Under the pieces are notes generated by a model. It did no database searches. It worked only from the letters and a program-made list of their open reading frames with translations, and was not told the origin of the DNA. 64,000 nt of DNA from assembly GCA_903813345.2 (NCBI GenBank), contig CAIIXF020000003.1, positions 28,039,248 through 28,103,247 of the forward strand, read 5' to 3'. The DNA comes from Owenia fusiformis. Lineage: Eukaryota; Annelida; Polychaeta; Sabellida; Oweniidae. Of this stretch, positions 2,308 to 45,826 are shown piece after piece; the stretch's first letter is position 1; each line of letters begins with the position of its first letter. The position numbers were made by a program, and so were the translations under genes.

Positions 2308-2394
2308 CAATTAATTAATTATTTTTTGACGTAAAGGTTTAATGACGTAATAGTAGATTAACCTGTATTTTTTCAACTGTTTTCAATTTAAATT

Positions 2395-6595: not shown

Positions 6596-6972
6596 TTGGA
6601 TATTAATTAAGGAAAGATATTATATCTGAAGGTCTACCAGTGAAGATTTCATATCCCCCACAATGATGATAGGCATTTGTATATACAGTAGAACCCACAT
6701 ATCCAAACACCTCTCTAATCCAAACATCTCTTGATATGAACATTTTTTCTCATTTTTGTTCAGATAAGCTTAAATCAAATAAAATACAGTAAACTGCATA
6801 ACAATTGTGAAACATAACTAGAAAATAAAAATCATCTTAAATCTAGATAAATAATTAATAATGTATTCAAGAAATATAAAAGGCAAATTATGGCACTGTT
6901 CAAAGTGTCGCCATCATTAGAGTAGACATGGAATGAGCTCCATCTATTGACCTGTACCAATATTCAATTGTT
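6596..6972. other. non-coding stretch with a TACAGTAGAACCC repeat start
   Basis: TACAGTAGAACCCACATATCC at about 6687 is followed by repeated CTAATCCAAACATCTC-type words. Related text (TATATGAACACCTTTCTAATC, GAACATCTCTCGATGTGAAC) is at about 27200-27330. It resembles termini of pogo/Tigger-like elements; tentative. Confidence 0.35.
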
Positions 6973-7632: not shown

Positions 7633-8098
7633 AGGGTTAATATCATCTTATACAATATATTGATATTGTGTTTTTTTATTATTATCTTTTTGTTTGAAAG
7701 AATACATTTATGATTTATTTATTTAGGAGATGTATTTGCAACAAACAAGCAGGCCTTGTTAAATTCAGTACTGTATCAGTACAGTGTATGTATGTCAACA
7801 TGACACTGAAAAGTTTATTCAAGATAATTAATTGATGAAGTCACAATGAATAGAACAATTGAAATGAAATATGTGGCTGCTGACTAATATGAGTTTAGTG
7901 AGTTTTGAGTGAGTAATGAGTTTTTATACAACTTTAGATTTTATTCTGCCCTTTGTCAAAGTCCTCAATCCATTCAATGATCAGTAAAATCATTGATCAT
8001 CAGGGTTCAGCTGCCTTAGTTCCAATGGCAACCGTTTTTTTTGCCCTTTTCATTGGCATTGCCTGTATGTTTTTTTTATTTGTGGCAGTATTGTTTTT

Positions 8099-9030: not shown

Positions 9031-9164
9031 TATTAACCTTAGTCTGAACCATGGTCATCAAATATTGCCCAATACATCATATAATCTTGGTCTTTTAATT
9101 CATTGAATCACATGACAATGTAGAAATATGAGTATAAATAATCTTCATTATGTATCAGATAAGG

Positions 9165-9300
9165 GTAATATTATAATTGAACCACTAAAACTGATGAATA
9201 TTCAAGTTTAAGGGAACTTTCTGAAATACCCTGCTATGGTATCTTCCCTGAATCAGCCACCTGGTGGTGAAAATGGTACTACCTACTCGCATCTGGGTAA
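9165..9300 (-). repeat. dispersed repeat B, copy 2
   Basis: Reverse orientation of the repeat at 1655-1800: TTGAACCACTAAAA, AAGGGAACTTTCT, GCCACCTGGTGGTGAAA, CTACCTACTCGCA. Confidence 0.65.
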
Positions 9301-9356
9301 TTATTCAAAATAATACAAAATGTAAATTTTTCATTTGTTTATTTATTTGGTTGCAG

Positions 9357-10071
9357 TCAGTTGTCTATGTGGACAAGAAGATCTGTGGATGTGAAATGGA
9401 TGGGAGAATTGTGCTCAGGTAAGGGACCATCTCATTATTTGTCCCATTGAGCAAAGTTCAAATGGGATATAGTGAATCCCTCTGTCCATCTGTCAGTCCA
9501 TCTCTCCTAAAATTTAAATACTGTGTGTTATTCTGTATATTGATCATCCCTAAGTTTCTAGAAAGCCTTCCATTATACTTTTGTTGTTTTCTTGAAAAAA
9601 GAAATAACAGCATGATGTAATTCAGTGAAAATTTATGGTGATTTTGGTTCAGTCAAATGAAAGCATCAGTTCAACATAGATTAATTCAATTCAATCTATT
9701 TAATGTCCCTTCACCTTTTATTCTGGTTAATATGTTGATATGAAAGACATGTCGGAAGGGTGAAATATTGTAATGCCAAAACAGGTAAAATTATGTTTTA
9801 CATGTTGAGTAGAAAATATAGGAGATCACTGAATTACATAAAGATTTTCAATTCTCTGTTCCAGTCTGAACAACACACTTTGGTTAGACCCTCTAGTCCA
9901 CCGTGAATACCTCCCAACATTGAAAATGACAACAAATGCTTATGAGTTGAGACGTGAAATCTTACAGAACAATCTTGCCATTGAGAACCCTGACCACATT
10001 AACCTACTGTACAAACAGTGTGAGGGCAGGATTGAGCTACCTGACACGACACCACCAAAGAAAGAAGATAG
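9357..10071 (+). CDS. Tudor gene exons 1-2 of the visible part: second half of a first extended Tudor unit
   Basis: Exon 9357-9418 follows TTGCAG and encodes VYVDKKICGCEMDGRIVL. Exon 9865-10071 continues with LNNTLWLDPLV, REYLPTLKM and ELRREILQNNLAIENPDHI, ending in a charged KKED linker. The pattern of beta strands followed by a helix ending in an LxxNxLA-type motif fits the staphylococcal-nuclease-like half of an extended Tudor domain. The canonical aromatic-cage half should lie in unseen upstream exons. Confidence 0.7.
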
Positions 10072-13000
10072 GTAAAAATATGCTGTAGGGGTATTGCTTT
10101 ATTGGATACTGTCTGTGTAAGAGTTATAGAGGGGGACAATTATGCTTCTTTCTGGGATATTGTCCTCCCTACCAGTTTTTATGTCCCCACCACATAGTGT
10201 GGGGCCATATTGTCGGCCTAGGCGCGTCCGTCTGTCCGTCTGTCCGTCTGTCTGTCCGTCTGTCTGTCCGTACGTCCGGCAGTTTTCTCCAAAACCGCTA
10301 CAGATATCACCTTCAAATTTTCAGGGATAACCTATGAGTGCATACAGATGTGGATGAAAAAAAATTAACTCGATACCTACTTCCTGTCGGCCATTTTGAA
10401 GTCAAATGCTAAAATCCTTGTCTGCAAACTTTAAGAAAAACTGCTTCACAGTTGCTTTTAAAACTTTAACATCTTGTTCAGCTCACTTCATTCTAGATCT
10501 GATTAGGTTTTGGACCTGCTAGCTCAGTCATGTCAGCCATTTTGAATGTCTTAAGAAAAGTTAGCGCGCGATAATACTTTGTATCATATTGAATGGTGTT
10601 TTTGAGTTTTCATACTTTAACTATTTAGTAGCTTTATAAATAATTTCAGATGTACTTTGCTGTAAAAGCCTACTTTATTGTTAACAGTAGTTATATGTGA
10701 TAATTTTGTAAAAAGAAATCAGCAAAAACTCATAAGGACTTTTTTATTGTCGGCCATTTTGGATTTTTCGGTCCTAAAATCTTGTCTGTGAAGTCTTGTC
10801 TGTGCGTTTTCAGGTGAACCGTTTGGTGGATCAATTTCAAATTTTCAGGGATGATTCTTAGTATAAAAATCTAGATCTCATTAGTTTTTTGGCATTCTGG
10901 GTAAATGTCAAGGCAGCCATTTTGGATTTTCCGTCCTAAAATCTTGTCTGTAAAGTCTTGTCTACTCGTTTTCAGGTGAACCGTTTTGTAGATCAATTTC
11001 AAATTTTCAGGAATGATTCTTAGTATGAAAATCTAGAACTGATTAGTTTTTTTGCATTCTGGGTAAATGTCAAGGCAGCCATTTTGGATTTTCTGCTTAA
11101 AATCTTGCCTGTAAAGTCTTGTCTACGCGTTTTTAGGAGAATGGTTTGATAGATCAATTTCAAATTTTCAGGGATGATTCTTTGTATGAAAATCTACATC
11201 TGATTACTTTTTTTGCATTCTGCGTAAATGTTAAGGCAGCCATTTTGGATTTTCTGTCCTAAAATCTTGTCTGTAAAGTCTTGTCTACCCGTTTTCAGGT
11301 GAACCGTTTGGTAGATCAATTTCATATTTTCAGGGATGATTCTTAGTATGAAAATCTACAAACAGATTAGTTTTTTGACATTCTGGGTAAATGTCAAGGC
11401 AGCCATTTTGGATTTTCCATCCTGAAATCTTGTCTGTAAAGTCTTGTTTACATGTTTTCTGGTTAACTGAGTGACAGATCAATTTCAAATTTTCAGGGGT
11501 GGTTCTTAGTATGAAAATCTAGAACTGACTAAATTTTGGGCATTCTGGGTTAATTTTAAGGTGGCCACTTTGGATTTTCCGTCCTCAAATTGTGTTGGTA
11601 AAGTCTTGTCTACTCATTTTCAGGATAACCATTTCACGGGATCACCACTTGGTGGGGACATTTTGTACACATTTGTGTTCTTGTGATAAAATGTAAAGGA
11701 AAATTATCATTTTACAATAAAATTGATGACCTTTTGCTATAGTGAATCGATTCTTATATTATAAAACATGTAATACTCAATTTTACAATATTTATCAGAA
11801 CGTTATTATTGAAATCTTATTTCATATTAAAACAGAAAATTATTTTTGCCCCTTCTTTTTGTCTGTTCCTAGATTACACAATTTCAGTATTTTTGTTTAC
11901 ATTTGGTGAACAATCATATCATTCTTAAAGACTGTGATACTAAAGTATGTTTTGTCCCCAGGGCAAAGATCCCAGAAACTGAAGTCCTACCAGAAGGAGA
12001 ACAGGACCATATTGTCCAGATTTCTTATGTGGCCTCACCAGGATGTTTCTTTGTACACAAGAGGGAGAACATCCAGAGGTGAGAAATAAGTCTGTTTATT
12101 ACTTTTAAAAAGGCAGAATCAGATCTTATAGAGGATGACAAAATTGTAGGCAATATGTACAATTGACCTATCAATGTATTTATTACAATCTCAATGTCTC
12201 CCAAAATATTTGTGATATGTTATCAATTGGTGTGAAAATGGGAAAAAGTATTCTCCCAAATAGTAAAAATGGAAATCTTATTCATAGAAAAATGAATGCA
12301 TATTGTAAAAATCTTTATTTTTCCTCAACTAAAGTTAGAAACTAAACTAAAGAAATCAAAGTATTGAGAAGAGAAAATTTTGCCATACTTCTAGCCACTT
12401 TTATAGCAATCAAATGGGGAGGGGGTTAATTATTTCAAACTGTGCAATTTACTGCAAGTTTAACTGGATTAAGTTTGTATTAAAATATACTAAATAACTG
12501 AACCTGTTAAACCTATTATGCTATCTTATTATAGTAGTTAAAAATTAGATTCCAATAATTGGACATTTCATCAAGTGCAAAAACTTCAATCAATGTTTGT
12601 CAAATCTTGTTAATTTTGATAAGTGAACCACACAGGTGTACTTTTGTGAAATGGGTCATTAATGGTTCATTTATAAGATGTGCTTTGACAAGTGGCGATA
12701 TTTCTTTATTTCTCAATGTATATAGGTGTTGAACAATATCCTTTTTGCTGTTTAATAAGTTTATTCTTCTTTTTTTATTGATGGTTTAACCATGCTGTTT
12801 TGTTGCTACACGTCATGATTTTACATAAAATCAACAAATTTTGTTTGACATTCAAATGAATTATTGCATTTTTCCCAGTTTTTTTTATGTCACTACCACC
12901 ACCACCACAAGTGCTGACATATTGTTATAGTCTCCAACTTTTCTGATGGCAAATGTTGACATTTTGCATGTTTGCAACCAATTCTGTAATGTTTAGTCGA

Positions 13001-16000
13001 TGTGTTGATGTATTGTCCCATATATTATTGTACCATATTTATGTATTGCACCATATTTATACTAGTTAACTAACCAAGATGTACTTTTAAACATAATAAA
13101 TCTATTTTGGATCTCAAAGGCTCTTTCAACAGAAATTAAGATAAATTACATACTGTTACATTTTAAGGGCTCATTGGGTTTAGCTACTTGACTCGAGTAT
13201 GGTACATGTTTGCACTATTACATTGATTATGGTATATGTTTGTAACATTACAATATGTATGGTACATGTTTACACTGTTACATTGTGTATGGTACATGTT
13301 TGTAACATTACAATATATATGGTACATGTTTACACTATTACATTGTGTATGGTACATGTTTGTAACATTACAATATGTATGGTACATGTTTACACTATTA
13401 CATTGTGTATGGTACATGTTTGTAACATTACAATATGTATGGTACATGTTTACACTATTACATTGTGTATGGTACATGTTTGTAACATGACAATATGTAT
13501 TGTACATGTTTCTACTGTTACATCGTGTTCATATACTGGTTAACATTGCTACTGTAAAATGTCATATCATATTGTGCATTAAGATTTCTCGCAACAGGAA
13601 GTTTAGTTCCAGCTGCTGTGTAGCGAATTGAATGTTGCACACTGGATGTTTTATCCTGAACAATGTCTGATATTTGATCAAATATATTATCGAGCATGTT
13701 GTATTGTTTCCCATGTCCTTCATGGATCATATCTTTACATATAGAGTTAAGTTTCTGTTCCAGTTGACGTTGTTGACGCTTTGGTCGTGTGTTGAAGGTC
13801 CTGTTACGTTTGTTCGCAAACCATGCTTTGACTTGCGCGATTGTGATTCCTCCTTCATCTGCCATCTTTTGCTTTTGTTCTTCTGTGGGGTATGGCTGGT
13901 CGGTGTGCTTCTCGTACCATTTGGACATTATTTCTATGGCTCTTGAGTTTAATTGCCGTGATTTTTTCTGTTCTTTTCCTGAGAGGGCAAAGCTTGATTT
14001 CAGAAGTTCTAGACTCTGGCTGACTCGTGTCACAAGATGATGAGTTTGTTCATTGAAATGTTTGTTCACTTCTGATTCCGTCTCACCAAAATTGGTCTTT
14101 CCAACTTTAAGACCACTTAGTGCATCGCTTCGTTGAGTTTCAATCGTAACTGATTGTGTCTGGTAAAAAGTTTCTAATTCACTGACTTTTGAGTTTTTCA
14201 ATGACGACAAGTTTGAAAATTCATCCAATAGTTCACCTTCGTCAAGTCCCTTATTTTCTTTGGCCTTATTTGGAAGAACAGTAAATGGCGATTCCATTTT
14301 TGAGATATCATCTGCAAGAGTTTTCTTAAGGTCCAAGAACATTGGATGTTGAGTAAGCTGCGACAGTAAATGTTTCTCTTTTGGAAGAACAGTGGTATCT
14401 CCTTTCAAAATGGCAGCCATTTTGTTAAATGATGACGTCTACTTATATTCCTCTTTACAGCTATTTCCAGAGTTTTTTACTATCAGATTTATTAAATTTT
14501 TAATATCCTAAAGTATAATCTCATGTAAATCTTCTTGTATAACCGATTCAGTTAATTCCAAGTTCAAAGTAAATTATAATCTAAAATAAATCCTTAATGT
14601 TAACACCAATGTTAAAATCACTTTTACTCCATAGTTTAAAACACTTCTGTGATCTGTGTTAGAAACATTAGTCTTACTTCTTGGAGAAAAAGTTGCGGAA
14701 TAATTGTAATCAAGTGTGTCACATGTTTTATCTATGCCACCAGGATGTTGCGGGCTAACTTACATTTTCGATTGCAAAGTTATAATTAAGCCAAAAGTTT
14801 GTCTTTTTCCAAAATTAGCCTTTTTGATAGCAACTATATGTTTGTATCTAGATCTGGTAATTTGATATTTTTTTTGAAGAGGAATAATTTAAATGATGAT
14901 TGTAAATGGATTAAGGAGAAAACATTGGGAAATGTATCTGTTTTGTTAACGAAGCATTGTACAATTGTTGTCCTGTATAGATATAGAAAATTGGGAGAGG
15001 AAAATAATACAAAAATCTATCTATCTTTTTAATTAAGAAAAATATGTTAGTTTTGATTAATGCACTTTTTTCTGACTAAAAATGAAAATAAATTGATTTT
15101 TATTAATCGAAGAGTTAAAAAGTCTTTTAGCTGTTTCACATTCACACAACCTCTAGACACGTCATTCATGCAGTCGCAAAAATACAAAGATTAAATTTTT
15201 TTGAATATCAAGGTTTCTGAATAGGTAAACCTCAAATTCAGTATTGCTCTCCCATCTTTAAAAACAGATATTTTAAATCATCTTTTATTGTGACTTTGTC
15301 AGCAAATAAATTCAAGATCATGGATTTGATTGATGTTTTCACATGAAATGAGGATGACTATTCTTTTGGGGGAAACTATTTTTATTGCAGCCAACTCAGG
15401 ACACTCACTGTACTGTGTAAGCTCAAACTGAATAATTGAGATACAGTACATGATGGTAAAATATAATGGCCTATCCTCCTATTCATAATGTCAGTTTATA
15501 AATAATGATATAATTTTTCTTGATCTGTATACTTGAAATTAAACATTATTTTTATGTGGCTTTGGTTTTAAATGCTTTGAGTTAGGATACAATATTATAA
15601 CGCATCAATGAATGTCTTTGTGATGTAAGATATTCGCTCGTAAACTTATAAAACAAACTTTGTTGTCAAGTTATGGGATGTATTCAGTATACCTACATGT
15701 TACATTGATTTTGGAAACTATGAAACTTGATGATCCTTGTTTGTTGTTGAAAATTTATGTAAATGTTTGTTTGTTGTGATAGTTTGAAGTAATTGTCTAT
15801 GAAGGATATTTGAGTAGATAAGTTTTTAATTGTTTGATTCTAAAGTTGAGGAAGTTGGTTTGAATATCATATTTTTGAGTGTTCACACACGTGGCCATTC
15901 TTTTTTCATTCAGTTTATATGTAAAACAGTTGATTTTATGATATTTCTGTATGAATTAGTGTATTTTCTACATGCATGGTTAACTTTATTCCTTGCTAAT

Positions 16001-19000
16001 TCCATTTTTTAAACTTGGCCCTTATTTGGAAATTCAGTTTTTAAAACAACAAAGGAAGTTAGCTTCAGATGTTTGGATGTCATGACAACCATGTTTTGCT
16101 GAAATTCAAAATGCTTTTATGAGATAAACATTTAGAGTTTCAATCAAGAAAATGTCAAAAATAGTTAAAAAATCATAGATGATATATTCAGACAGAACAG
16201 CTCTTTGGAATAATTATCAGTTTGATGAATGAGGTACAGACAGACTGTTCTTTAACACCACATTAGCCTATAAGACCTTTTGTATTATTACACATCCCAC
16301 CTCTCAATTATATGCCTTAGATTCCTTTAGCAATCTCTGTATGGAGTCCTAACACCCCTCTGGTTTTACTGATGACATTAACTTGGACGCGTCCACTATT
16401 GAATAAAGTAGTTTGTACACGTGCCAACGTCCTCAATTTCCCCATACATTAGTGCAATCAACACACGTTTTTGTTTGAAACAAAAAATTTATATGGAGAA
16501 CAACAAGTCGTCAGTTGTAAAGGATATTAACCTTAATTCAACAATGAACTACAATGTCAATGAACAACTGGAAGATGGACAAATTCCTGACTTTTCAAGT
16601 CAACTTCAAAGGGATACTTCAAATTTGCTGCAAGGGAACATTTTCTCTGGCGAGGAAAATCCAACTCCGGGTAGCATGCCATCCCACACCATCACCAGCG
16701 GCATAGACATTGACAACAACATCAACAGTGACTTCATGAATCGTGGGCTCATTCCACCAGGAAATGAGGGGCATGATATGAACTCACAAGGGAAGGACTT
16801 GACTTGCCAGTCAAATTTCAACCCTACTTTGGATACTCGTGATTCTGGGCTCACCTCCCTACCCGGGACTGAGGTGCAGGACACATCCAACTTTCAACAT
16901 CACCACCCTACAACAGGGAGAGACTTCATACAGTCTAATAGTCTGAATTCAATAGGATTCAGAGCAACAAACACTTTACCATCTAAGAGGTTTTCAAAAT
17001 CTCAACAACAACAACACTCCGAACTGCGGACCTATCAAAATCAACAACCAGGGCTAGCCTCAAGTATATCGCCAGATATGGTCCAAGATATTATCAAAGG
17101 ACTGACTCCAACTCTTGAATTGCTCGTAGCAAACAAACAACTTGACGTTGAACTTCTAGGTGAAACAACCAACAGAAGCAGGTCCGCTAAAAGAAGGGAG
17201 GTACAAAGAGCGAAAAAGCGAACTGTTTCGCCGTCTAGTCTACAGTATGTTTCCCCGGACCGGGCATCTAGCCCCAAACGGGCAAGAAGTGATCATCCCT
17301 ACAGCGAAGTGGACTCGCCCGTGACCTCTCCTGCGCACATGCGCCATGACAGCAATAACCCGGAAGACTCGGATTCTTCCAATTCCGACAACGATCATGA
17401 CTTAATTTGTTGGAAGAACTGTGTTAAACTAATTAAAAATGCCTTTCCGAGTCATTTTAAAACAACTACAGACTATAACACAGAAACACAAACGGAAAAT
17501 AGACCGCTAGGACTTCAAACTTTGGGTAAGAAATCTACTTCTTCAGACACAACAAAAGGCTTACCGATCGGGCCTTCAGTGCTACAGAATTTCGCCAACA
17601 TTAACCAGGAATTAGCCAACAAGAAAAACATGAATGACACTACCTTCCTGTTAAGACCAAAACGATCGTTCACGTCCCTCAAAGAAGATGAACACTTCTA
17701 TAAAAAATCCATTTTGAATGGGACAACTAAGGAACTTGTTCCACATTCCATGAAACTATCAGATTTGGCTTCAACTTCTTACCAGCTTCCAGCCAAACAC
17801 CACAAACTGTTGGAAGAATCAGCGAGAGCTCCTCTTCGTCATCTGTCTCACACTGAATGGATTCTAGGGACAACAGGGAAAATCATTGCGGAGAATTTCC
17901 CTGAAAATGAGGATCTCGTCAATCTTATTACAACAGCTTCAACTATGGTAAATAAAGCTACAAGGGACACCATTTCAAATGTCACAAACGTCATACTGAC
18001 TCAAAGGGACAGGGTAAGCTCCAAGTTCAGGAAGTCAGACGCTGAAGCCCTTAGGAATCTCCCCATCGACACAAAATTTTTATTTCCTGAAGAGGATTTA
18101 AAAAATATCTGTGAAGGGTCGGATAAATCTAAAACCTCAAAAGCGCTACAAGATTTAGCTTCAAACTGGAAAAATCGAAAACAGAATTATGATAAATCCA
18201 GTAATAACAACTCCAACAGAAGTAGTAATCAACATTCCAACTTTAACAGGAACAACTTCAACAACAACAACAACAACAACAGAAACAACAACAGAAACAA
18301 CAACAGAGGAAACTTCTCTGACCGTTCTACTTCTACAAAATCCAACAACAATAACAACAAATCAGGCTTTAAGAAGCGTAAATGACACTTCAATAACATC
18401 AATGTCCCAGCCCCGCCTCCCCCCGTTCTCACCTATGTCCCAGCTGGGACCAGTGGGAGGCAGGATTCAACTACACTTAAAAAACTGGGAACTCATCACA
18501 AAGGACCAATGGATTTTAAATGTGATAAAACATGGCTACATGCCACAACTAGTGAACAATCCACCTTTGACAAAAAACTTCAACAACTTCGAATCGGCAT
18601 CAAAAACAAAAGCTCTACTGCTTCAAAACATAGTAGATCTCCTAATTCAAAAACAAGCTGTGGAGGAAACAGACTACAACACACCGGGCCACTACAGCAT
18701 CATATTCTTACGCCAAAAGCCAAACGGAGATTACAGACCCATAATAGACCTGTCTCTCCTCAACAAACACATAATATGCCCAAAGTTCAAAATGGAAACT
18801 TCAGCCAAAATATCAAACTCTCTACAAAAGGGCGAATGGGCCACATCCATCGATTATCGGGATGCTTACTACCATATACCGATAGCCAAACCATTCAGGA
18901 AGTTTCTTCGCTTCGTGATCAACAACAAAGTGTACCAATTCAAAACACTTCCATTCGGAATGTCCACCAGCCCTTATGTTTTCACAAGAGTGACATTAGC

Positions 19001-37000: not shown

Positions 37001-40000
37001 ATTTGTGCTATTCATTTATTGCTGTCCTATTACAACAAAAGCATTTAGACTTACTTACAAAGGTGACAAACATTTTCCGAAAGATATGTCTAAATTCGTT
37101 AATTCTCCAGGCATATATTATAGGGTTCAGTCCCGCTTGAATCATTATTAGAATTGTTGGCCAATAAGGAAAACCAAAATTATCATTTTTATGGGACATT
37201 ATTACAAGATTTATAAAGACTGGTAACCATGTAATATAAAAAACTCCTAGTATAAGTGAACTTGTTTTGACAATTTTAAAAATGCAGCCTTTCCTTGGAC
37301 ATGAATAATGGCATTTAACATTTTGTGGCTTTTGGACATTCTTCTTTGTCTCCTCTCTATCTTTATATATTTTTGGAAGTCTTGTTTTTGGTGTGTCATT
37401 GTTTCTATTTGGTGGTTCATTGTCATTAGAAGATAATTGTTGCATTTCCACTGTTGTTGTTGTTTCAGCCAATGTTGTAATGTTCTCAAGGTTTTGCGAA
37501 ATACTGGCTAATCTTTTCTGATCAGTTTTTATCTTGAAGCATTGTTTATATGCAACCCTAAAAATTCTGACGTAGCAAAATGTTGTAACCAGCAAAGTAG
37601 CACTTGCAAACGATTGTAGCATAATAAGATATTCCTTCGGGATTAAGAAATATGAATTACAATTAAAATCGTCAAACTCTGCTCGTAAGTTCCAACCCAT
37701 GAGAGGTAAGAATGCAACTATTGCACAAATGAATAATTCAAGTAAAATGGCTGCCAAACATCGTTTAGGTGTAATCTTGTATCCCCAATATGGGTGAAGT
37801 ATGTTAATGTAGCGCTCTATTGCGATAAAAAGCAAGCAAGTTCCAGAGGCCGAGACAGTAAATCCGAACATAGACTTTCCAAGCAAACACAAAGTTGCAT
37901 CATTCACTAGATCAGTATCGATAAACTGTGATGCTGACATCAGTGGAAAAGTCACGATCGCTGTTAGAATGTCGGCAACTGCTAAAAATGACGTGAAAAC
38001 AGGGTTGACTGCACCCAAATGTCTGAGTTTCTTACTCTTGTAGAAAGTGACCAAAACTAAAATGTTCCCATGTAGAATAAAAGGAACTAGAATTAATCCT
38101 ATCCAAAAAACAACTTTTATCTCTGGCATCCTGCTACTCTGCTTCTCAAGACAAAAACTCAACAGTTAATGTACAGTAGTTGTCTATAATTGTCAGTTTT
38201 TATGGGGGTAGTATAAAAAATCAGAATAAGTTCATCATCTCTAAACAATCCTAATCCTGTTCTTATTATCCCAATTAATGTAGATCTTGAGGGATACAGA
38301 AAAGCCTTCCATCCATCTATCCAACTAAATGTACAGTCGTCAGATTTGGTTCAGATTTTATGTGTTGATTACTTATAGACATAGACTACTGCTTAAGAAG
38401 GAATTTCAAAATGGTTTCTGAATTTAAGTGATTCACCAAAGTTTGTTTTGTATGATGAGATTTGTTCCTCCTGTGAGTTGCTGTTTTTCTAGTCTTATGA
38501 CAAATATTCTTCTTATATTATCAGCATTGTACTCAAATGAATTTTTCTTTCGTTTCTCTCCACATCATCACCTTAGGTTCCACGAGATGTAGTACTTTTA
38601 TATGGTCCCTTTCGTAGAGTCACTCCCTTTAGTAATGCTATGAGAGTGAATCTGAAACATTAAGCTAATATAGAGAGATAGTTCTACTACTCTGCACCGA
38701 TTAAGGTAGTCATCCAATTAAACAACATTCTAGAAGGACTAGCTGTCCATTTGTATGTCCAGGCGATAACTCAAATATAGTGTTGACAGATACATGTAGG
38801 GTACAAATTATAAATACGTAATTTGGGTGGATTTAATGAGTAATGATTTATGAGTGGAGGGATTTGGTTCAAATTTTATTTACTGATGCCTATAGGCTCA
38901 AATCTGTCGCAAAATTCACGTTTAGACCATTTGCTAGCTTCATAAATAATTTCAGGTGTCCAGCATCGTAAAAAGCCATGTAACTGTAAAAAGTAGTTGT
39001 ATTAAATAATTTTGTTGCAAAATAGGCAAAAAAATATCCTTTTTTTAACTTCTGCCATTTTAGCCATCATTCACTTTTGAGCAACACAATGTGAGCCCAG
39101 TACCCATGGTACTATTTATTTAAGCTGGGCAAACTGGTAGTTGTCAGGTCTTAATGTCATCATATGGTACTCTGGGTGAACTTCAAGGATGTATATTTCA
39201 TAGAGCATTCCTACTTATACAAGGTGATCCAGAAGTATGGCAACATCTTTGATCTTACTTATGGATCACCCTGTAATTTCAAGTTTTTAACAAGACTTAA
39301 CAAATTTACCTTTTTACTTCAGTTCAGTTTTGAACAAATTAGTAATAATTTTATTTCATACGTTCTTGATATATATATATCTTTTATTGACTCTTTAGAT
39401 GTCATGACCTGACATATTAGTCATTACAAAATGAAATTTTACAAAAACTACACTACACTACACTACACTAATATATACAATTTATACAAAAAACTTGTTA
39501 TTTACATATGTTATAATATACTTTAGGTGTGATGCATCCAAAATGTTAATCCCCAGGCAAGTTTAAGTTTTTGAATGATTTCGTAATAAAACTTCCAACT
39601 TGCTTTTGCACATATTTATCTTTTGAAGAAATTAACATAATGAATGTATTTTCAGGATCATGTTGATCAACATTAATTTTGCTAGTGATGTTGTCAAACA
39701 ATATTCTTCTATTTTCTCTATGTATTGCAAAATACTACCCTGATCTCTGGGTTTGTTTAAATGTTTTGGTATATTTAGTTCGATAAATGTCACTGTAACT
39801 TAAGGAATGTAGTTGTTTGTCTGTTTAGTAAGTTATAAATCCAGGGATTTTGGCGAACGAGGATACAAAATGTCAAAAATTACTACCTATTCCCTCAAAT
39901 TAAAGGTTTCCACATGAAATAAGTAATCATGCTGGACGTAAATGATATGGCATGTAAAAAACTATTCCATTTTGTGGAACGATCAATTACACAGGCTACC

Positions 40001-43000: not shown

Positions 43001-45826
43001 TAATTTTACTGTAAGCTCTTGATCTCCTATTTCATTGGCACATTTTCTTACTTTCTGGTCTAATTCTATTGTCTGCACATGCCCTCAGAAATTGACCCAC
43101 AGAAGAAATAGACATCTTTATTATTGTAATGGTATCTGGCAACATACTTCTACGGAATGTTTTATTGAGACCTCGGACTCACCTGGAACTGTCTTTCTTT
43201 TGAATCCTCGTGTCTGAGCCTGTGTGTTAAGTTTTATGTAGCACTGTCTATGCCATTTGGCAATGTTTGTTTTAATTGTTTCATACACACCAGATCCATT
43301 ATTCAACCTTGATAAGTCAGCATCTACATGTATAGGCATGCTTTTTAATTCTGAACATTTTTCCAGATGCTAGTTTTGACATTGGCCTCTTGTTTCAAAT
43401 CGGCTGCCATTTGTGTTGATTTTACAGTGTGAAGTTACAACAGAAATTTTTAATTATGTTATTATTTTAAGCAGCTACTTTGTCTTTTAAATGGGTCTGC
43501 GCAAAACAGTGTCACTTATTTTTTTATTTCAAAGTATATATATTGATGCTTTTCAGAGTTACCCCAAGTGTGCATTGGTCACAGAACAGAGGAAAGGTTG
43601 TTCTCAACATACAACTCAAGGGGGTTGTCCATAAACACATAGAGTTCAAGGAAGACAGATTCATATTCAGGTATTTGGTGAACTTGGACTTGGCGGACAA
43701 AATATAGTTGTCTATTGCAAATAAAAATTTGTGTAAAGAAAACTCAAATCTTATTAAACTTAATATGTAAAAGTTATTCTGTGATTCTTCTGTGATGAAT
43801 TTATGATGCCATCCAAATTTGTTGTGAAATATATCTCAAGATCTGATGGTAAGGTCATCATTTTAACTGAAATGACCAGTTTCCATAATAATGTCAATAA
43901 ACAGTGTGTTATGGATTGTTCTCTTGGAAGAAGTTGTAAGGCCTCTGTTATAGAAAGTTGCACTCTTTTAATTAGAGGTGTTTACGTGACATCAATGCCT
44001 TGTTTTTCATTGTAATTTTTGTAATAGGTTAGTTTTAATGAAGCAAAATATATTGGAGTTATGTTATATTTTAGAGCGTATGTGAACAACAATCTCTACC
44101 AGCTGAACCTAGAGCTCTATGGTGGTCTGAAGCCTGCAGAATGTAAGGTTTCAGTGCGGGCGATGGAAATCCTGGTAGCCATCTATAAATCAACTTTGGG
44201 CAGGTGGCCACGACTTTTGAAGACTTCAGAGAGGGTAATATCTGTTGGTATATTTATATCTATCTATATTTATAGCAGCCATGGCCGTTTGATAGGATTT
44301 GTTACGCCTTGGCGTTGCTATTATCTAGTTCTTGTTTTGGCTCCCCAGATAGGAACTTTTACAATCCTTTAGATCTCATTAAATCACAAATATTTTAAGA
44401 AAAAAATTCCTGCCCACAATCCAAGATCACAAACTCACAAATATAGTTTTTGTAAGTCTGTAAATATGGTTAAATCACAGTTTTGTTGTTATAGCAACCC
44501 TGGTTGAGTGTGGACTTCTCTCGGTTTGTGGACTCATCCTCAGAGGACGAAGAAGACTGGAACAGTTCAGAGGATGAATTATCAACATACCTTGTGTGTA
44601 AAAGTGAGTGTAATCGGAATAAGTTGTTACATGATATCCTCTTGCATCCTGATTTGGTGGCTCAAAGGTTGAATAGACTAATCGAATCATGTCATCTATT
44701 AGTTATGATGTCATTCTTAGTTTGAGTGCAGAAATATACCTGTATTTACTTGAAGATCATTTTGTTTACAAACGTAACTGACTGCTCTGTATAAATCAAG
44801 CAGATATAGTACTTTAGTTGTTTTGGTTTTCTAGAAGGGATTGGGATTTATTGGAAAGATTTATTGTTATCCTAGACCAGACCCCACTGCTGAATATTAA
44901 TTCAAAACTGAATTAGTATACATGTAGATCAGTAATATAAATCAGGTCCATAGCCAGGATTTGCCAAGGGGGGTTCACTTTTTGAAAAATTCCAGGGGGG
45001 TTCACTTGTGACAAAATTGGTCAAAAAATGGCCAAAATCAGTTAAAAAGTGCTCAGAATGGTGAAAAACTGCATGATTTTGTAAGATTTTTTGGCAAGGG
45101 GGGATTGAACCCATCAAACCCCTCTGGCTACGGGCCTAAAAATCACATGAATCTGATATTAAATATTAGAAATAGACAAAATGACACCATCTTGCCGCAC
45201 TTTTTAAAGTATAACAGTTGTCAGACCTTGTTCATTTATCATATACCATTTGCAAAAAGCCATGACTATAAAGATATGTCATCACTTCTTCTCAAGAGTA
45301 ACAAGACTACAATGATGGGATTGCCCCAATATTTTCCCTTTATTCATCATCACATTACACTCGCCTTGTGATAGAGGTGTTATTCCATTGTGGGTTTCAT
45401 AGCCAAATCCATTTCCTTTGGAAGATAGTCCTTTTCAAGCACATTTGATAAAGAGGGAATCTGATAAATTGGGATGCTGTCGTTCAGATTCACAGATTTT
45501 ACCATAGGCCCAGGAACATGTATTTTTAATGCCAAATTGAAGTTTGGCTGGCTGATGTAAGGAAAATTTCCACAAACGTTGATTTGGGATTGGTCATACA
45601 TTACAAGTTCCTGGGCCTATGGGCTATACTGTGCAACTTTTAACACTTTGTTTACATTACAGGGCGATATACACCATCCCCATTTGGCTTAACAAAAGAA
45701 CCGTCCAAGTACCCCACCGGGCAACCAGCAGGCTTAGACGACACCAGCGAATCTGAGAGTGAAGAGGATCGTTTTGATGATCATGATGATTATGACAGAT
45801 TCAATATATTTGATGTAAGATCCTGA
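9357..45826 (+). CDS. Tudor - armadillo-like repeat - CS domain protein (20 exons, 5' end missing)
   Basis: Rebuilt from AG/GT sites with consistent phases. Exons: 9357-9418, 9865-10071, 11962-12078, 23337-23477, 24399-24580, 24985-25241, 25596-25682, 26142-26326, 26957-27085, 27480-27555, 27911-27963, 28531-28656, 28941-29016, 29768-29868, 30278-30397, 35522-35611, 43557-43670, 44075-44234, 44495-44603, 45663-45826 (stop TGA). They join to 2556 nt, 851 residues, without an internal stop. Domain order: C-terminal half of one extended Tudor unit, a complete extended Tudor, armadillo-like repeats, CS (p23/Hsp20-like) fold, acidic tail. Tudor domains bind dimethylated arginine, typically on PIWI proteins in germ granules. 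ARM and CS modules bind proteins or Hsp90-type partners. A role as a piRNA/germ-granule scaffold is inferred. TDRD12-type proteins also end in a CS domain, but the ARM block and the lack of a helicase between the Tudor units differ. Earlier exons should lie upstream and were not recognised. Confidence 0.88.
10181..11672 (+). mobile_element. pearl/CvA-like repeat with (GTCT/GTCC)n and ~162-bp tandem core units
   Basis: The head palindrome CCCCACCACATAGTGTGGGG (10184-10203) is followed by a GTCC/GTCT run at about 10226-10275. About five tandem units of ~162 bp follow (AAGGCAGCCATTTTGG at 10910, 11072, 11233, 11396, and diverged at 11558), and the tail ACCACTTGGTGGGGACAT (11644-11661) echoes the head. 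This head-microsatellite-tandem-core-tail layout matches bivalve pearl/CvA elements and related non-autonomous Helentrons. It sits in an intron of the Tudor gene and encodes no protein. Confidence 0.7.
11962..25241 (+). CDS. Tudor gene exons 3-6: complete extended Tudor domain
   Basis: Exons 11962-12078, 23337-23477, 24399-24580 and 24985-25241 form one domain. HIVQISYVASPGCFFV..REN (first SN-like strands) comes first, then a helix with NDLTDDINTRIEEARN. The Tudor core is WYRGVTLACRNSIEFEVFF, then DYGERSWV and ILPILDAHRELPFQAIECCI. The SN-like second half has SWSEESGDYL, VARLTQTSTPEF and IELIDTTSTSDIYLGQQLV. Aromatic-cage candidates are W and Y of the WYRG motif, F of FFLDYG and Y of DYG. The 11.3-kb intron between exons 3 and 4 holds the homeobox gene and the DIRS element. 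Confidence 0.88.
12079..13195. other. intron sequence before the minisatellite
   Basis: Part of the 11.3-kb intron of the Tudor gene. It holds a degenerate copy of repeat C (about 12885-12975: ATGTCACTACCACC, GACATATTGTTATAGTCTCC, GACATTTTGCATG). No exon or gene was recognised in the remainder. Confidence 0.5.
13196..13517. repeat. 60-bp minisatellite made of two 30-bp half-units
   Basis: Alternating TATGGTACATGTTTACACTA.. and TATGGTACATGTTTGTAACA.. half-units, five to six full periods with very few changes. Because the unit is a multiple of 3, several frames stay open on both strands; these are not genes. The array ends exactly where the homeobox ORF stops. Confidence 0.9.
13518..14420 (-). 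CDS. TALE-class homeodomain protein, intronless, nested antisense in an intron
   Basis: This is a 300-residue single-exon protein. The homeodomain spans about residues 153-213: SRQLNSRAIEIMSKWYEKH, the three-residue TALE loop around DQPYP, EEQKQKMADEGGITIAQVKA and the recognition helix WFANKRNR (residues 200-207). Trp48, Phe49, Asn51 and Arg53 are present, and position 50 is Ala as in IRO/MKX classes, although the rest does not match those. The N-terminal ~150 residues are acidic/polar and helical, with no PBC, MEIS or IRO-box that I can see. A basic run RPKRQQRQ follows the homeodomain. It is predicted to be a nuclear DNA-binding transcription factor. Divergent intronless TALE genes are a known spiralian expansion (SPILE genes active in early cleavage), and membership is an inference. 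The ATG at 14420 opens the frame cleanly. Confidence 0.88.
   Translation of the reverse strand: MAAILKGDTTVLPKEKHLLSQLTQHPMFLDLKKTLADDISKMESPFTVLPNKAKENKGLDEGELLDEFSNLSSLKNSKVSELETFYQTQSVTIETQRSDALSGLKVGKTNFGETESEVNKHFNEQTHHLVTRVSQSLELLKSSFALSGKEQKKSRQLNSRAIEIMSKWYEKHTDQPYPTEEQKQKMADEGGITIAQVKAWFANKRNRTFNTRPKRQQRQLEQKLNSICKDMIHEGHGKQYNMLDNIFDQISDIVQDKTSSVQHSIRYTAAGTKLPVARNLNAQYDMTFYSSNVNQYMNTM
14421..16281. other. intron stretch between homeobox gene and DIRS element
   Basis: This should contain the homeobox gene's promoter and 5' leader, just above 14420 on the minus strand. No TATA box or other element stands out. The rest is AT-rich, with only short uninformative open frames. Confidence 0.4.
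16282..16448 (+). repeat. DIRS left inverted terminal repeat
   Basis: Runs from GTATTATTACACATCCC to CCTCAATTTCCCC. Bases 16296-16443 are the exact reverse complement of 21661-21808. Its outermost ~35 bases are complementary to the first half of the internal region at 21527. Confidence 0.9.
16493..18385 (+). CDS. DIRS ORF1, gag-like protein
   Basis: Open from 16421; the ATG at 16493 (MENNKSS) is preferred because 16421 lies inside the terminal repeat. It encodes about 630 residues. The N-terminal half is polar and Asn/Ser/Gln-rich, with a basic nuclear-localisation-like patch (RSRSAKRREVQRAKKR region) and PKRARS. The central part, about residues 380-560, is a conserved-looking helical region (LLRPKRSF, HTEWILGTTGKIIAENFPE). 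A long Asn/Arg-rich tail ends in KSGFKKRK, likely RNA-binding. No zinc knuckle is seen. It overlaps the RT ORF. Confidence 0.8.
   Translation: MENNKSSVVKDINLNSTMNYNVNEQLEDGQIPDFSSQLQRDTSNLLQGNIFSGEENPTPGSMPSHTITSGIDIDNNINSDFMNRGLIPPGNEGHDMNSQGKDLTCQSNFNPTLDTRDSGLTSLPGTEVQDTSNFQHHHPTTGRDFIQSNSLNSIGFRATNTLPSKRFSKSQQQQHSELRTYQNQQPGLASSISPDMVQDIIKGLTPTLELLVANKQLDVELLGETTNRSRSAKRREVQRAKKRTVSPSSLQYVSPDRASSPKRARSDHPYSEVDSPVTSPAHMRHDSNNPEDSDSSNSDNDHDLICWKNCVKLIKNAFPSHFKTTTDYNTETQTENRPLGLQTLGKKSTSSDTTKGLPIGPSVLQNFANINQELANKKNMNDTTFLLRPKRSFTSLKEDEHFYKKSILNGTTKELVPHSMKLSDLASTSYQLPAKHHKLLEESARAPLRHLSHTEWILGTTGKIIAENFPENEDLVNLITTASTMVNKATRDTISNVTNVILTQRDRVSSKFRKSDAEALRNLPIDTKFLFPEEDLKNICEGSDKSKTSKALQDLASNWKNRKQNYDKSSNNNSNRSSNQHSNFNRNNFNNNNNNNRNNNRNNNRGNFSDRSTSTKSNNNNNKSGFKKRK
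18189..20483 (+). CDS. DIRS ORF2, reverse transcriptase and RNase H
   Basis: 764 codons are open in frame. RT motifs in order: FLRQKPNGDYRPIIDLS, SIDYRDAYYHIPI (motif A), LPFGMSTSPYVFTR (motif B) and QYLDDWL (motif C, YxDD). RNase H follows: FTDASETMWGA, the conserved E in WLELAAV, CLDNTTALSYI and HIAGSLNRRADALSR. The last part (LDLMATCHNNKLPLYVSP..PD, IMIAPKWPNQPWF) is the conserved post-RNase H segment of DIRS proteins. The product copies element RNA into DNA. Its frame differs from ORF1, and translation probably depends on overlap or re-initiation. The first ~70 codons overlap ORF1 and may not be used. Confidence 0.9.
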   Translation: MINPVITTPTEVVINIPTLTGTTSTTTTTTTETTTETTTEETSLTVLLLQNPTTITTNQALRSVNDTSITSMSQPRLPPFSPMSQLGPVGGRIQLHLKNWELITKDQWILNVIKHGYMPQLVNNPPLTKNFNNFESASKTKALLLQNIVDLLIQKQAVEETDYNTPGHYSIIFLRQKPNGDYRPIIDLSLLNKHIICPKFKMETSAKISNSLQKGEWATSIDYRDAYYHIPIAKPFRKFLRFVINNKVYQFKTLPFGMSTSPYVFTRVTLAIGAFLHFQGILTHQYLDDWLIRAPSAQQCQIWTQTVLSVTEKLGFVINREKSELIPTQIFKYIGTQYNLILGLTYPPQDRIQKILEIAQLFTNTLSQPTRQWMKLQGLLASAEKNIPWGRLYMRPIQQCLASQMSPTKSLETPIYINQEVINTLKWWMDEQNLLMGQPLGMFVPDHTIFTDASETMWGAHMDSVEINGFWSPSEMRNHINWLELAAVLKVLHKLNHLLVPQANILVCLDNTTALSYINKQGGTKSKSLLTLSQEILIWCKNHQINIRAQHIAGSLNRRADALSRDRIVNTEWSLLPQIVKRLWQIWETPQLDLMATCHNNKLPLYVSPVPDQNSLGTDAMSIPWDNLNFYIFPPTSMIDKVLTKMRTHNCEAIMIAPKWPNQPWFTQILELLTDYPRTLPVSQKLLKMPKTSMFHQTPEIFALHACKLSTTPSKNKAFLQKCLFESQNHQGGNPQINSMIPGGTPSLFGVMNGIQIHAKQIFL
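20240..21382 (+). CDS. DIRS ORF3, tyrosine recombinase
   Basis: The frame is open from 18509, but its first ~580 codons overlap the RT and look like a shadow. The recombinase reads from about 20240. An N-terminal SAM-like domain has TFTVWCYERN..CQADIPLVAEFLLYL and IEGYRTAINTVL. The catalytic domain has the first Arg in ASGKRRSDIHAL, the H-x-x-R box in KTHETRALSAS and the Tyr in TSFYLRD. This R..HxxR..Y set is complete, so the enzyme could be active. It would integrate the circular cDNA without target duplication. The exact start is uncertain. Confidence 0.85.
   Translation, partial: KTTKNAKDKHVSPDSGNICPSRLQIVNDTLKKQGFSTEVSLRISESPRRKSTNKLYDSRWNTFTVWCYERNSDPCQADIPLVAEFLLYLHQTKKLSIPTIEGYRTAINTVLKKSSDIDLTDNSLIGDLIRSFKLENLTPRNMVPKWNLVFVLNALSKAPFEPMATAELKFTSWKTLFLLLMASGKRRSDIHALDFRRLKWSESRDQVTMYPFIGFLPKSLSAAEGESRFQPILIKALTTLVNRDSPDRTLCPLRALRYYLQATVSTRGNRNRLFIPYKAGYTGDIHVNTISSWVKNLILYTYKNSQETDYQINSIKTHETRALSASLAVQANLSVTAVLKACSWANHNTFTSFYLRDTSVIEGELRKLGPMMVAGSLYNI
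21527..21619 (+). repeat. DIRS internal complementary region
   Basis: Starts GGCATATAATTGAGAGGTGG, passes through ACTGGGAAAATCC and ends TACCCACCTCTCAATTA. Its first half is complementary to the left outer end and its second half to the right outer end. This is the template for joining the termini into a circle. Confidence 0.88.
21656..21853 (+). repeat. DIRS right inverted terminal repeat and right extension
   Basis: Bases 21661-21808 mirror the left terminal repeat exactly. 21809-21853 (TATGTTTATAAACAGG to GGATTTTCCCA) is the right-specific end, complementary to the internal region. Confidence 0.88.
21879..22066. mobile_element. short inverted-repeat element (ATTGGCGTAGC ends)
   Basis: ATTGGCGTAGCATCC at the left and GCTACGCCCAT at the right frame ~190 bp of non-coding DNA beside the DIRS right end. 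Only ~11 bp pair, so the call is tentative. Confidence 0.4.
22411..22800 (+). repeat. dispersed repeat D, copy 2 (partial)
   Basis: TAGCTCACATGGTGAGCTTTTGCAATCGCTCAC is a palindromic head, and a GTCC/GTCT run follows (22446-22495). The right boundary is not defined; a C-rich run at about 22763 may mark it. A short copy of the same head occurs at 30727-30772. Confidence 0.55.
23107..23291 (+). mobile_element. MITE-like element A, copy 2
   Basis: CAGGCCCGTAGCCAGG at the left and CTGGCTACGGGCATG at the right. It ends 45 bp before the start of Tudor exon 4 (23337), so it lies where branch point and polypyrimidine signals are expected. Confidence 0.8.
23478..24398. other. intron between Tudor exons 4 and 5
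   Basis: AT-rich, with no repeat or gene recognised apart from the splice sites. Confidence 0.4.
25596..30397 (+). CDS. Tudor gene exons 7-15: armadillo-like repeat block
   Basis: Nine short exons encode alpha-helical repeats of about 40 residues with a recurring (S/D)GGLKxLCxL signature: CDSGGLKSLCSLAG, RSDGGLKTLCNLLC, EFQGVKTLCRIIG, KSLGGLKTLSSLVG and RREGGLKSMCDNL. The exons cover 25596-25682, 26142-26326, 26957-27085, 27480-27555, 27911-27963, 28531-28656, 28941-29016, 29768-29868 and 30278-30397. The signature matches armadillo-type superhelices that bind partner proteins. Two of these exons sit in local tandem duplications. Confidence 0.82.
26385..26500 (+). repeat. dispersed repeat C, short copy
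   Basis: ATGTCACCACCAGAAG, TTATTGTTATAGTCTCC and a tail AGGTGGTGACA. Same family as 29093-29261, 30868-31503 and 47076-47810. Confidence 0.55.
26551..26806. mobile_element. MITE with GGGTGTCCC ends
   Basis: The terminal inverted repeats GGGTGTCCCAAAAAATGAAT and ATTCATTTTTTGGGACACCC are a perfect 20-bp match. The 256-bp element has no ORF and lies between Tudor exons 8 and 9. Such termini recall Tc1/mariner-type elements, but no transposase is here. Confidence 0.8.
28266..28539 (+). repeat. 137-bp tandem duplication that includes a splice acceptor and exon start
   Basis: Units 28266-28402 and 28403-28539 are near identical. Each ends with ATAATT(A/G)TAG followed by GAACTGCAAAC, i.e. the acceptor and first bases of Tudor exon 12. 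Only the second unit runs on into the real exon (28531). The first is a decoy acceptor. Confidence 0.9.
29093..29261 (+). repeat. dispersed repeat C, copy
   Basis: ATGTCACAACCAGAAGTGTG, GACATATTGTTATAGTCTC, a GTCTGTAACAGC duplication, then GGTGGCGACATTTTGCATG and TTAATGCCTTGTT. Confidence 0.7.
29521..29658. mobile_element. 138-bp long inverted repeat (hairpin MITE)
   Basis: ATAGACCTCAGAGCAGGTGT at the left and ACACCTGCTCTTCAGTCTAT at the right pair with few mismatches. Pairing continues inward through ATTGACGAAT, GGGCT and GGCACAAA. It lies in the intron before Tudor exon 14. Confidence 0.7.
29810..30127 (+). repeat. three tandem copies of an exon 14 end plus its donor site
   Basis: Copy starts are 29810, 29918 and 30035 (AAGAATAAATGGAACAG). 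The first is the real exon end. Copies 2 and 3 each carry the coding end, AATAG and the GTGGGTT donor, but with a 7-nt change that breaks the frame. Copies 2 and 3 resemble each other more than copy 1. Confidence 0.9.
30612..30699. mobile_element. 88-bp MITE
   Basis: TACAGGGTGTTTATAAAGTC and GACTTCATCGAAACCCTGTA are imperfect inverted ends, with TCTCTTTAC and GTAAAGAGA pairing just inside. No ORF. Confidence 0.65.
30868..31503 (+). repeat. dispersed repeat C, long copy with internal tandem units
   Basis: The head is the palindrome ATGTCACCACCAAAAATGGTGACATATTG. The body has about four ~100-bp units with GTTCAAATCTGACTTTA, GACCTTCTCAAGGTCAAAAA and CTTGCTTCAAATTGACC. The tail is GGTGGTGACATTTTTTC then TTAATGCCTTGTTT. 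It is the same family as 47076-47810. Confidence 0.75.
31752..34403 (-). CDS. Mab-21 / cGAS-like receptor (cGLR-type) protein with tandem-repeat insert
   Basis: Two exons on the minus strand: 34403-32677 (donor AGAAG|GTAATA) and 32292-31752 (acceptor ATTGCAG). They join in phase to about 755 residues and lie antisense in the intron between Tudor exons 15 and 16. The nucleotidyltransferase core is visible: helical spine, NGSFY (about residues 83-87), AEFDF with Glu97 and Asp99, and the third metal ligand in HVDITF (about Asp451). The Mab-21 C-lobe shows KILVILKYCLQACRKYG, YLTYNSHTMKTIIG and, over the splice, RYVHFSSEW. With all three acidic ligands present the protein may synthesise a cyclic (oligo)nucleotide on sensing nucleic acid, as cGAS-like receptors do. 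The ligand is unknown. Odd: nine 23-residue acidic repeats sit between the second and third catalytic acids. Confidence 0.85.
32549..32680 (-). repeat. dispersed repeat B, copy 3, overlapping a splice donor
   Basis: GATCCACTAAATC, CAAGTTTAGTGG, GCCACCTGGTGGTGAAAC. Its end coincides with the exon 1 donor of the Mab-21 gene (GT at 32675-32676, read on the minus strand). Confidence 0.65.
33354..33974 (-). repeat. nine in-frame 69-bp (23-residue) repeats in the Mab-21 gene
   Basis: The consensus unit is PDSEDDAIAHIDAMESSNEH followed by YKP. Unit 1 is the most diverged, units 4-8 nearly identical, pointing to recent unequal exchange. The repeats are acidic and probably disordered. The antisense ORF over the same bases is a shadow. 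Confidence 0.92.
35522..44234 (+). CDS. Tudor gene exons 16-18: linker and CS domain
   Basis: Exon 35522-35611 is a linker ending CHIDFTKVDVGAA. Exon 43557-43670 opens the CS fold with VTPSVHWSQNRGKVVLNIQL and exon 44075-44234 completes it with NNNLYQLNLELYGGL, ECKVSVRAMEILV and RWPRLLK. The W..(T/N)....V.L.I.L start and the WPRL end are hallmarks of CS/p23-like domains, which dock Hsp90 or related partners. The intron between exons 16 and 17 (35612-43556) contains the GPCR gene. Confidence 0.83.
35612..37007. other. intron stretch before the GPCR gene
   Basis: No gene seen. TACAGTAGAAACTGCTAAGTGG at about 35691 resembles the start of repeats near 6687 (TACAGTAGAACCC). Most of the stretch has no visible structure. 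Confidence 0.35.
37008..38162 (-). CDS. class A GPCR, adenosine-receptor/MECA-like, intronless, nested antisense
   Basis: 384 residues with seven hydrophobic segments. TM1 includes HGNILVLVTFY (the GN of GNxxV). TM2 has SFLAVADIL (Asp2.50). TM3 is preceded by Cys in DATLCLLG and ends in ERYINILHP (the DRY position reads ERY). TM4 ends in FLPLMGWN, and the loop Cys in FNCNSYF would pair with the TM3 Cys. The third intracellular loop is long and Thr/Lys/Asn-rich (about residues 215-290). TM6 has FYITWLPVF (the CWxP position reads TWLP), and TM7 has LNPIIYAWR, then EFRHIFRKM (helix 8) and a Cys-rich end suited to palmitoylation. LMGWN and NPIIYAWR favour the adenosine/MECA branch. The ligand is unknown. 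It sits in the intron between Tudor exons 16 and 17. A second Met 12 codons in could also start it. Confidence 0.88.
   Translation of the reverse strand: MSFCLEKQSSRMPEIKVVFWIGLILVPFILHGNILVLVTFYKSKKLRHLGAVNPVFTSFLAVADILTAIVTFPLMSASQFIDTDLVNDATLCLLGKSMFGFTVSASGTCLLFIAIERYINILHPYWGYKITPKRCLAAILLELFICAIVAFLPLMGWNLRAEFDDFNCNSYFLIPKEYLIMLQSFASATLLVTTFCYVRIFRVAYKQCFKIKTDQKRLASISQNLENITTLAETTTTVEMQQLSSNDNEPPNRNNDTPKTRLPKIYKDREETKKNVQKPQNVKCHYSCPRKGCIFKIVKTSSLILGVFYITWLPVFINLVIMSHKNDNFGFPYWPTILIMIQAGLNPIIYAWRINEFRHIFRKMFVTFVSKSKCFCCNRTAINE
39218..39275. mobile_element. 58-bp micro-MITE
   Basis: TACAAGGTGATCCA and TGGATCACCCTGTA are inverted ends with one mismatch. It is a solo terminal hairpin or a very short element. 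Confidence 0.55.
41375..41614. mobile_element. 240-bp inverted-repeat element (MITE)
   Basis: AAGCTAGCCATACACCAATGG and CCATTGGTGTACTGCTAGCTT pair over about 21 bp with two mismatches. Inside are repeated TGTCCC/GGGACA words. No ORF. Confidence 0.8.
42705..43339 (-). pseudogene. decayed fragment of a repetitive invertebrate ORF family
   Basis: Minus-strand fragments in different frames carry a familiar order: TIKTNIAKWHRQCYIKLN with FKRKT, then (after frame breaks) VYFFCGS, KVRKCANEIGDQELTVKLSN and IPAQEN. This resembles the CFFCG / VRxCA / KWHxxCY modules of long multi-copy ORFs often annotated as uncharacterised in molluscs and cnidarians. The stops and frame changes mean it is dead. Function unknown; the family recall is tentative. 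Confidence 0.45.
44495..45826 (+). CDS. Tudor gene exons 19-20: acidic C-terminal tail and stop
   Basis: Exon 44495-44603 encodes a short hydrophobic start (PWLSVDFSRFVD) followed by SSSEDEEDWNSSEDELS. Exon 45663-45826 encodes RYTPSPFGL, a proline/glycine linker, and a second acidic run SESESEEDRFDDHDDYDRF, ending NIFDVRS and TGA. Clusters of acidic residues with serines fit casein kinase 2 sites. A GTAAGA lies just before the stop, so a further splice is conceivable but unneeded. Confidence 0.8.
44943..45137 (+). mobile_element. MITE-like element A, copy 3
   Basis: CAGGTCCATAGCCAGGAT at the left and CTCTGGCTACGGGCCT at the right, with GGGGGGTTCACTT and GGTGAAAAACTGCATGATTTTG inside. Confidence 0.8.
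45501..45622. mobile_element. 122-bp inverted-repeat element
   Basis: ACCATAGGCCCAGGAACATGT and ACAAGTTCCTGGGCCTATGGG pair with two mismatches. It lies 40 bp before the last Tudor exon. Confidence 0.65.

Follow-up and report, generated by a model that had tools for sequence, protein, structure and literature searches.

Known TDRD12 proteins carry a crystallin/CS domain at the C terminus, and their helicase precedes the Tudor-2 unit rather than lying between that unit and the CS domain. As far as the available text of the sources goes, zebrafish Tdrd12 is a protein of 1362 amino acids (aa) with two Tudor domains, one DEXDc domain, and one ACD, listed without their order (PMC5485951); BoYb has 1059 aa with a DEAD-box domain and an eTud (PMC12014135); and a survey of 111 holozoan proteomes describes TDRD12/Yb as a single T3 Tudor with a DEAD domain (PMC12147562). 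The word "armadillo" is absent from the main text of that survey, in so far as this text is available. We found no description of a TDRD12 with armadillo (ARM) repeats in the open-licence literature searched, a scope limited to publications. In the available parts of PMC3654919 and PMC8277629, both terms occur in unrelated places or in the reference list.

piRNA production involves Hsp90 in flies, silkworm, and mouse, together with the co-chaperones Shutdown/FKBP6 and Hop, and mice mutant for Hsp90alpha, Fkbp6, or Tdrd12 share a failure of MIWI2 nuclear entry, as described in the available portion of PMC4231750. It is poorly understood what TDRD12 contributes to piRNA production, and the literature we searched says little about its crystallin/CS domain.

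Gene model and domain order

Using open frames and splice sites, we assembled a plus-strand gene at 9357-45826 of the window, by which we mean the whole 64-kb stretch of DNA analyzed. Its 18 exons join in frame to encode 808 residues followed by a stop codon, with GT-AG sites at 17/17 introns and agreement of phase at 17/17 joins. The splice sites were picked by eye for GT-AG and phase, so the phase agreement is partly by construction. Family alignments cross joins 3/4, 4/5, 5/6, 8/9 to 11/12, 15/16, and 16/17 and marginally cross joins 7/8 and 12/13, and join 1/2 is crossed by an alignment to a provisional human TDRD12 sequence. Joins 2/3, 6/7, 13/14, 14/15, and 17/18 were set by splice sites, phase, and order only. 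On the joined protein, Pfam returned TUDOR (4.2e-19), Arm (9e-10), Arm_2 (2.1e-6), and CS (1.4e-4), as well as ARMC5 at 3.8e-9, which is under the cut-off, and a PDB sequence search returned beta-catenin, Vac8, TDRKH, TDRD1, and p23 chains among the best 60 of 108 matches. We confirmed that a gene combining Tudor, armadillo, and CS domains at 9357-45826 is real, and its 18 exons probably belong to one transcript. The visible order is a Tudor-2 unit, an extra complete extended Tudor, an armadillo superhelix, a p23-type CS domain, and an acidic tail.

The original prediction had the same coordinates as our model, which starts at 9357 and has a stop codon ending at 45826, and it had proposed a domain search of the joined exons, in which Tudor, Arm, and CS are now all recognized by Pfam. 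Each domain that it named was recovered: the extended Tudor by PF00567 and TDRKH/TDRD1 matches, the GGLK armadillo-like block by Pfam Arm models and beta-catenin/Vac8 matches, and the C-terminal CS domain with its acidic tail by PF04969 and p23 matches. The surface of Hsp90-co-chaperone type that it foresaw is borne out by sequence as p23/Sba1 type, the p23 matches being the best. Its count of 20 exons was corrected to 18; as a guess, the two surplus exons may represent copies of part of exon 12 in a tandem array.

The complete extended Tudor starts in exon 3 (11962-12078) and continues through exons 4 (23337-23477), 5 (24399-24580), and 6 (24985-25241). The match to PF00567 (4.2e-19) spans residues 106-231, beginning in exon 3 and including exon 4, and the PDB sequence matches are to TDRKH and TDRD1 (1.6e-8 to 4.3e-8). 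Exon 5 carries the Tudor core (FEVFFLDYGE and LPFQAIEC) and is recognized on its own as TUDOR (1.8e-13), and exon 6 carries the remainder of the domain, with a TDRKH match at residues 177-320 among the 60 of 108 matches listed. Extended Tudor domains that bind methyl-arginine have an aromatic cage plus an asparagine. When aligned to TDRD1 (4b9w), the domain keeps the aromatic residues and has a Glu where TDRD1 has the cage Asn, so the predicted methyl-arginine binding is uncertain and the Tudor may bind unmodified peptides.

Two further elements are found in the intron that separates exons 3 and 4. Nested in it on the minus strand is an intact, single-exon TALE-type homeobox gene (13521-14438; Homeobox_KN, 1.6e-14), which we take to be reminiscent of spiralian TALE genes and which would presumably fit a spiralian origin. 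A retrotransposon at 16289-21817 has long open frames (16412-21382, plus strand), a reverse transcriptase (PF00078, 9.2e-23), and a weak SAM match of integrase type (0.081). It is flanked by inverted repeats of 158 bp (98%) and is presumably a DIRS element.

Exon 7 (25596-25682; GT-AG, in phase) links the Tudor to the armadillo block, which occupies exons 8 (26142-26326), 9 (26957-27085), 10 (28531-28656), 11 (28941-29016), 12 (29768-29868), and 13 (30278-30397), the last of which holds the end of the block and a linker. The block matches PF00514 (9e-10) and PF04826 (2.1e-6) and, among the 60 of 108 PDB matches listed, beta-catenin (2.6e-8) and Vac8 (6e-8), with the Vac8 match running from residue 345 in exon 7 to residue 561 in exon 13. 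The block contains four GGLK motifs. Exon 8, where the block starts, has the first GGLK at 81 nucleotides (nt) in phase 0; each of exons 9 to 11 begins, in phase 2, 25 nt ahead of a GGLK; and exon 12, which lies within the ARM matches and encodes the second half of the repeat begun in exon 11, has none. Exon 9 alone is recognized as Arm (1.7e-4), and exons 8 and 10 alone gave no Pfam match. The common 25-nt offset and phase 2 of exons 9 to 11 indicate that part of the block has one repeat per exon, a layout that is direct evidence for the reality of these exons and for their origin by duplication.

All six pairs among repeats 1 to 4 exceed shuffles (6/6; 0/1000 shuffles reaching the score in five pairs and 1/1000 in one), and at least four ARM repeats stand ahead of the p23-type domain. 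A fifth repeat in exon 13 was rejected, as 4/4 of its pairs with repeats 1 to 4 failed, with 661, 528, 75, and 550 shuffles per 1000 reaching the score. The protein is also not an ARMC5, since PF24768 scored 36.8 bits against a cut-off of 79.9. Two local duplications touch this part of the gene on the plus strand. One, of 137 bp at 28266-28542, covers the acceptor region of exon 10 and the first bases of that exon, and the other, a 117-bp tandem array of 2.6 copies at 29820-30126, covers the 3' half of exon 12 and yields partial extra copies of that exon.

Exon 14 (35522-35611) encodes a linker placed by GT-AG sites and phase only and contains an in-frame Met. The CS domain follows in exons 15 (43557-43670; first part), 16 (44075-44234; second part, with WPRL-LK), and 17 (44495-44603), where the p23 signature WLSVDF is followed by an acidic stretch, and exon 18 (45663-45826; GT-AG, in phase) encodes the acidic C-terminal tail and the stop codon at 45824-45826. 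The domain matches PF04969 (1.4e-4) over residues 630-703, a match that, like those to p23, covers exon 15, and the p23 matches also take in exon 16. Nine PDB sequences matched to an E value of 1, and the five best were p23 proteins, including plant At3g03773 (8.3e-9), human PTGES3 (4.2e-7 to 9.6e-7), and yeast Sba1 (3.5e-6). We rejected an SGT1-type CS, which reached an E value of 0.058-0.074 versus 8e-9 for p23. The domain is identical to human p23 at 30/112 positions and at 11/18 over WPRL...LSVDF. These matches assign the CS domain to the p23/Sba1 type, and it is predicted to bind Hsp90. p23 itself is a stand-alone small protein; the CS domain here is joined in phase to the ARM exons, and neither join 13/14 nor join 14/15 is spanned by an alignment.

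Several minus-strand genes lie within or beyond this end of the locus. An open frame of 590 aa at 32676-34445, between exons 13 and 14, includes a coding repeat of 69 bp, present in about 8.5 copies (33382-33969), and its best Pfam match, Mab-21 at 0.13, is under the cut-off. A rhodopsin-type G protein-coupled receptor gene (37011-38165; 7tm_1, 2.8e-34) lies inside the intron that separates exons 14 and 15. An open frame resembling indoleamine 2,3-dioxygenase (48529-49902; PF01231, 1.7e-117) lies mostly in one exon, and exons at 56085-61612, which we take to encode a Rab geranylgeranyltransferase alpha, have LRR_4 (1.6e-6, in 56085-56450) as their only Pfam match. A tRNA-Thr(TGT) is located on the plus strand at 61110-61184.

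Exons 1 and 2 and the region to their left

Exon 1 (9357-9418; GT-AG, entered in phase 0), the first visible exon, holds the beginning of the C-terminal half of a Tudor-2 unit of TDRD12 type, and exon 2 (9865-10071) holds the end of that unit and a linker. We compared these exons with a provisional human TDRD12 sequence, reconstructed without a database after the window had been read. The two exons align with the provisional sequence without gaps, at 43% over 68 aa just past the second Tudor, with a blastp E value of 4e-16 in a search of one protein and a score of 156 versus at most 51 in 2000 shuffles. A tblastn search of the 64-kb window with the provisional protein matched exon 2 at 45% over 51 aa (5.8e-10). 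The Tudor-2 core of the provisional sequence also matches the complete Tudor of the window (0.028 by tblastn and 2e-5 by blastp), as is usual among Tudor domains. Exons 1 and 2 alone gave no relevant Pfam match, with one chance match at 0.12, and no PDB sequence match to an E value of 10. Relative to the provisional human sequence, the C-terminal half only of the TDRD12-type Tudor-2 unit is present.

Because exons 1 and 2 match TDRD12 past Tudor 2, what is visible resembles the 3' half of a gene of the TDRD12 family that is cut by the window edge. The original prediction saw the remains of another Tudor here; according to the alignment with the provisional sequence, this is the TDRD12 segment after the second Tudor. 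Since the helicase precedes that Tudor unit in TDRD12 and is expected earlier in the protein, its absence from the visible part is uninformative, and the earlier argument that a protein with no helicase is not TDRD12/Yb is unsupported.

A motif scan of 1-9356 in three plus-strand frames found no helicase, Tudor-1, or Tudor-2 core, and the open pieces of the same region (strings of 1547, 1685, and 1685 aa) matched no Pfam family at E values to 10. The provisional Tudor-2 core gave nothing better than an E value of 7 by tblastn upstream of exon 1. As a sensitivity control, we searched with nine single-exon or exon-pair pieces of known domains, and 3/9 found their own family (Tudor, 1.8e-13; Arm, 1.7e-4; CS, 0.023), so that a Tudor core exon in 1-9356 would be expected to show up and other exons might be missed. 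The gene has introns of 11.3, 7.9, and 5.1 kb, which makes it plausible that a further one longer than 9.3 kb lies to the left, and a canonical acceptor at 9356 precedes exon 1. The frame ahead of exon 1 is open and runs into it with an in-frame ATG at 9273; exon 1 could be the first exon, or this ATG could open a short, helicase-free product. Most likely, the exons for the helicase and first Tudor sit left of the window. Also left of exon 1 is a galactosyltransferase gene on the minus strand (2977-4242; PF01762, 1.2e-49).

Competing readings and a predicted function

We consider it probable that this is a TDRD12/Yb-family gene, visible in its 3' half, with an added Tudor and an ARM block and with its helicase exons left of the window. 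This reading draws on the match of exons 1 and 2 to the provisional TDRD12 sequence and the fit of the p23-type CS to the ACD of zebrafish Tdrd12, and on the Tudor, ARM, and CS parts that lie between in order, on one strand, with 17/17 joins in phase. It also draws on the phase and GGLK offset shared by exons 9, 10, and 11 and on the ties of Hsp90, its co-chaperones, Fkbp6, and Tdrd12 to piRNA production given in the available text of PMC4231750. Counted against it are the lack of a helicase, Tudor-1, and Tudor-2 core in 1-9356 with the ATG at 9273, the use of a provisional human sequence for exons that have no relevant Pfam or PDB match of their own, the absence of ARM repeats from known TDRD12 descriptions, and the Glu in place of the Tudor cage asparagine. 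The original proposal of a piRNA-type Tudor protein with an ARM superhelix and an Hsp90-type CS is supported, but not its placement outside TDRD12/Yb.

A helicase-free derivative of TDRD12, either a truncated paralogue or an alternative-promoter product, starting near exon 1 and acting purely as a scaffold, would come close to the original view and would fit both the failure to detect a helicase or Tudor-2 core in 1-9356 and the open frame with its ATG at 9273 leading into exon 1. We think this unlikely, as exon 1 starts in the middle of the Tudor-2 unit and the product would therefore carry half a fold, a canonical acceptor is present at 9356, and a 9.3-kb intron would not be out of range for this gene. 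There is also a small chance that two or three adjacent genes were read as one, with a small p23-like gene that starts in exon 14 lying behind a gene of Tudor or Tudor-ARM type. Introns 13 and 14 measure 5.1 and 7.9 kb and contain minus-strand genes, exon 14 offers an in-frame Met, and neither 13/14 nor 14/15 is bridged by a homologous alignment. However, zebrafish Tdrd12 also carries a CS-type end, phase matches at every join, and 30/112 identical positions would be low for an ordinary p23 gene. That the locus is decayed or misassembled and holds no working gene is very improbable: its introns contain a transposon and tandem repeats, one of which duplicates part of exon 12, but 808 residues stay open in frame across 18 exons with GT-AG sites and curated models recognize the folds.

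If the locus is a TDRD12/Yb-family gene as we favor, its TDRD12 part would engage piRNA intermediates and PIWI partners in germ granules. The p23-type domain would dock on closed-state Hsp90 and help to load or recycle PIWI proteins, and the ARM superhelix would be an added docking groove for a further factor. PIWI loading would thereby happen at the site of RNA processing, where the p23-type end of such a TDRD12 form would position a co-chaperone of this sort, and a germ-granule function of the protein is predicted. We tentatively suggest that a helicase, a methyl-arginine reader, an ARM groove, and a p23-type co-chaperone may be united in one chain that couples RNA handling to Hsp90-driven PIWI loading, although we give this somewhat less than even weight. 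The CS domain keeps the p23 signature, so a direct link to Hsp90 can be put to the test, and the ARM block suggests an additional partner. This block could be an old part of TDRD12 that was lost toward vertebrates and flies, or it could be a new gain. Should this layout prove widespread, the well-studied proteins of vertebrates and flies would be reduced versions.

Comparison with known systems

Pattern searches of two collections without animals gave 4 matches among viral contigs and 37 among genome contigs, with 0 relatives in either. Compared with TDRKH and TDRD1, the extended Tudor has the same fold and core motif but no KH or MYND domain attached to it, and a Glu stands here at the position of the cage Asn of TDRD1. 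The armadillo block has GGLK-type turns like those of the ARM repeats of beta-catenin, Vac8, and the ARMC5 model, but here it is four repeats only that support one another. Like p23/Sba1/PTGES3, the C-terminal region has a CS fold, the WPRL-K...WLSVDF signature, and an acidic tail; unlike in those proteins, the CS domain ends a large Tudor protein and shares 30/112 identical residues with human p23.

The closest likeness is to vertebrate TDRD12 and fly Yb, BoYb, and SoYb. The sequence past the second Tudor is alike, as judged from the provisional human sequence, and so is the crystallin/CS-type domain, which is called ACD in zebrafish Tdrd12 in the available text of PMC5485951. As far as the available text of PMC5485951 and PMC12147562 goes, known TDRD12/Yb layouts are without ARM repeats and without a third Tudor, and the helicase that they contain is out of view here. 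The unusual part is most likely the additional extended Tudor and the ARM repeats before the p23-type domain in a TDRD12-like protein, a kind of protein that is itself known.
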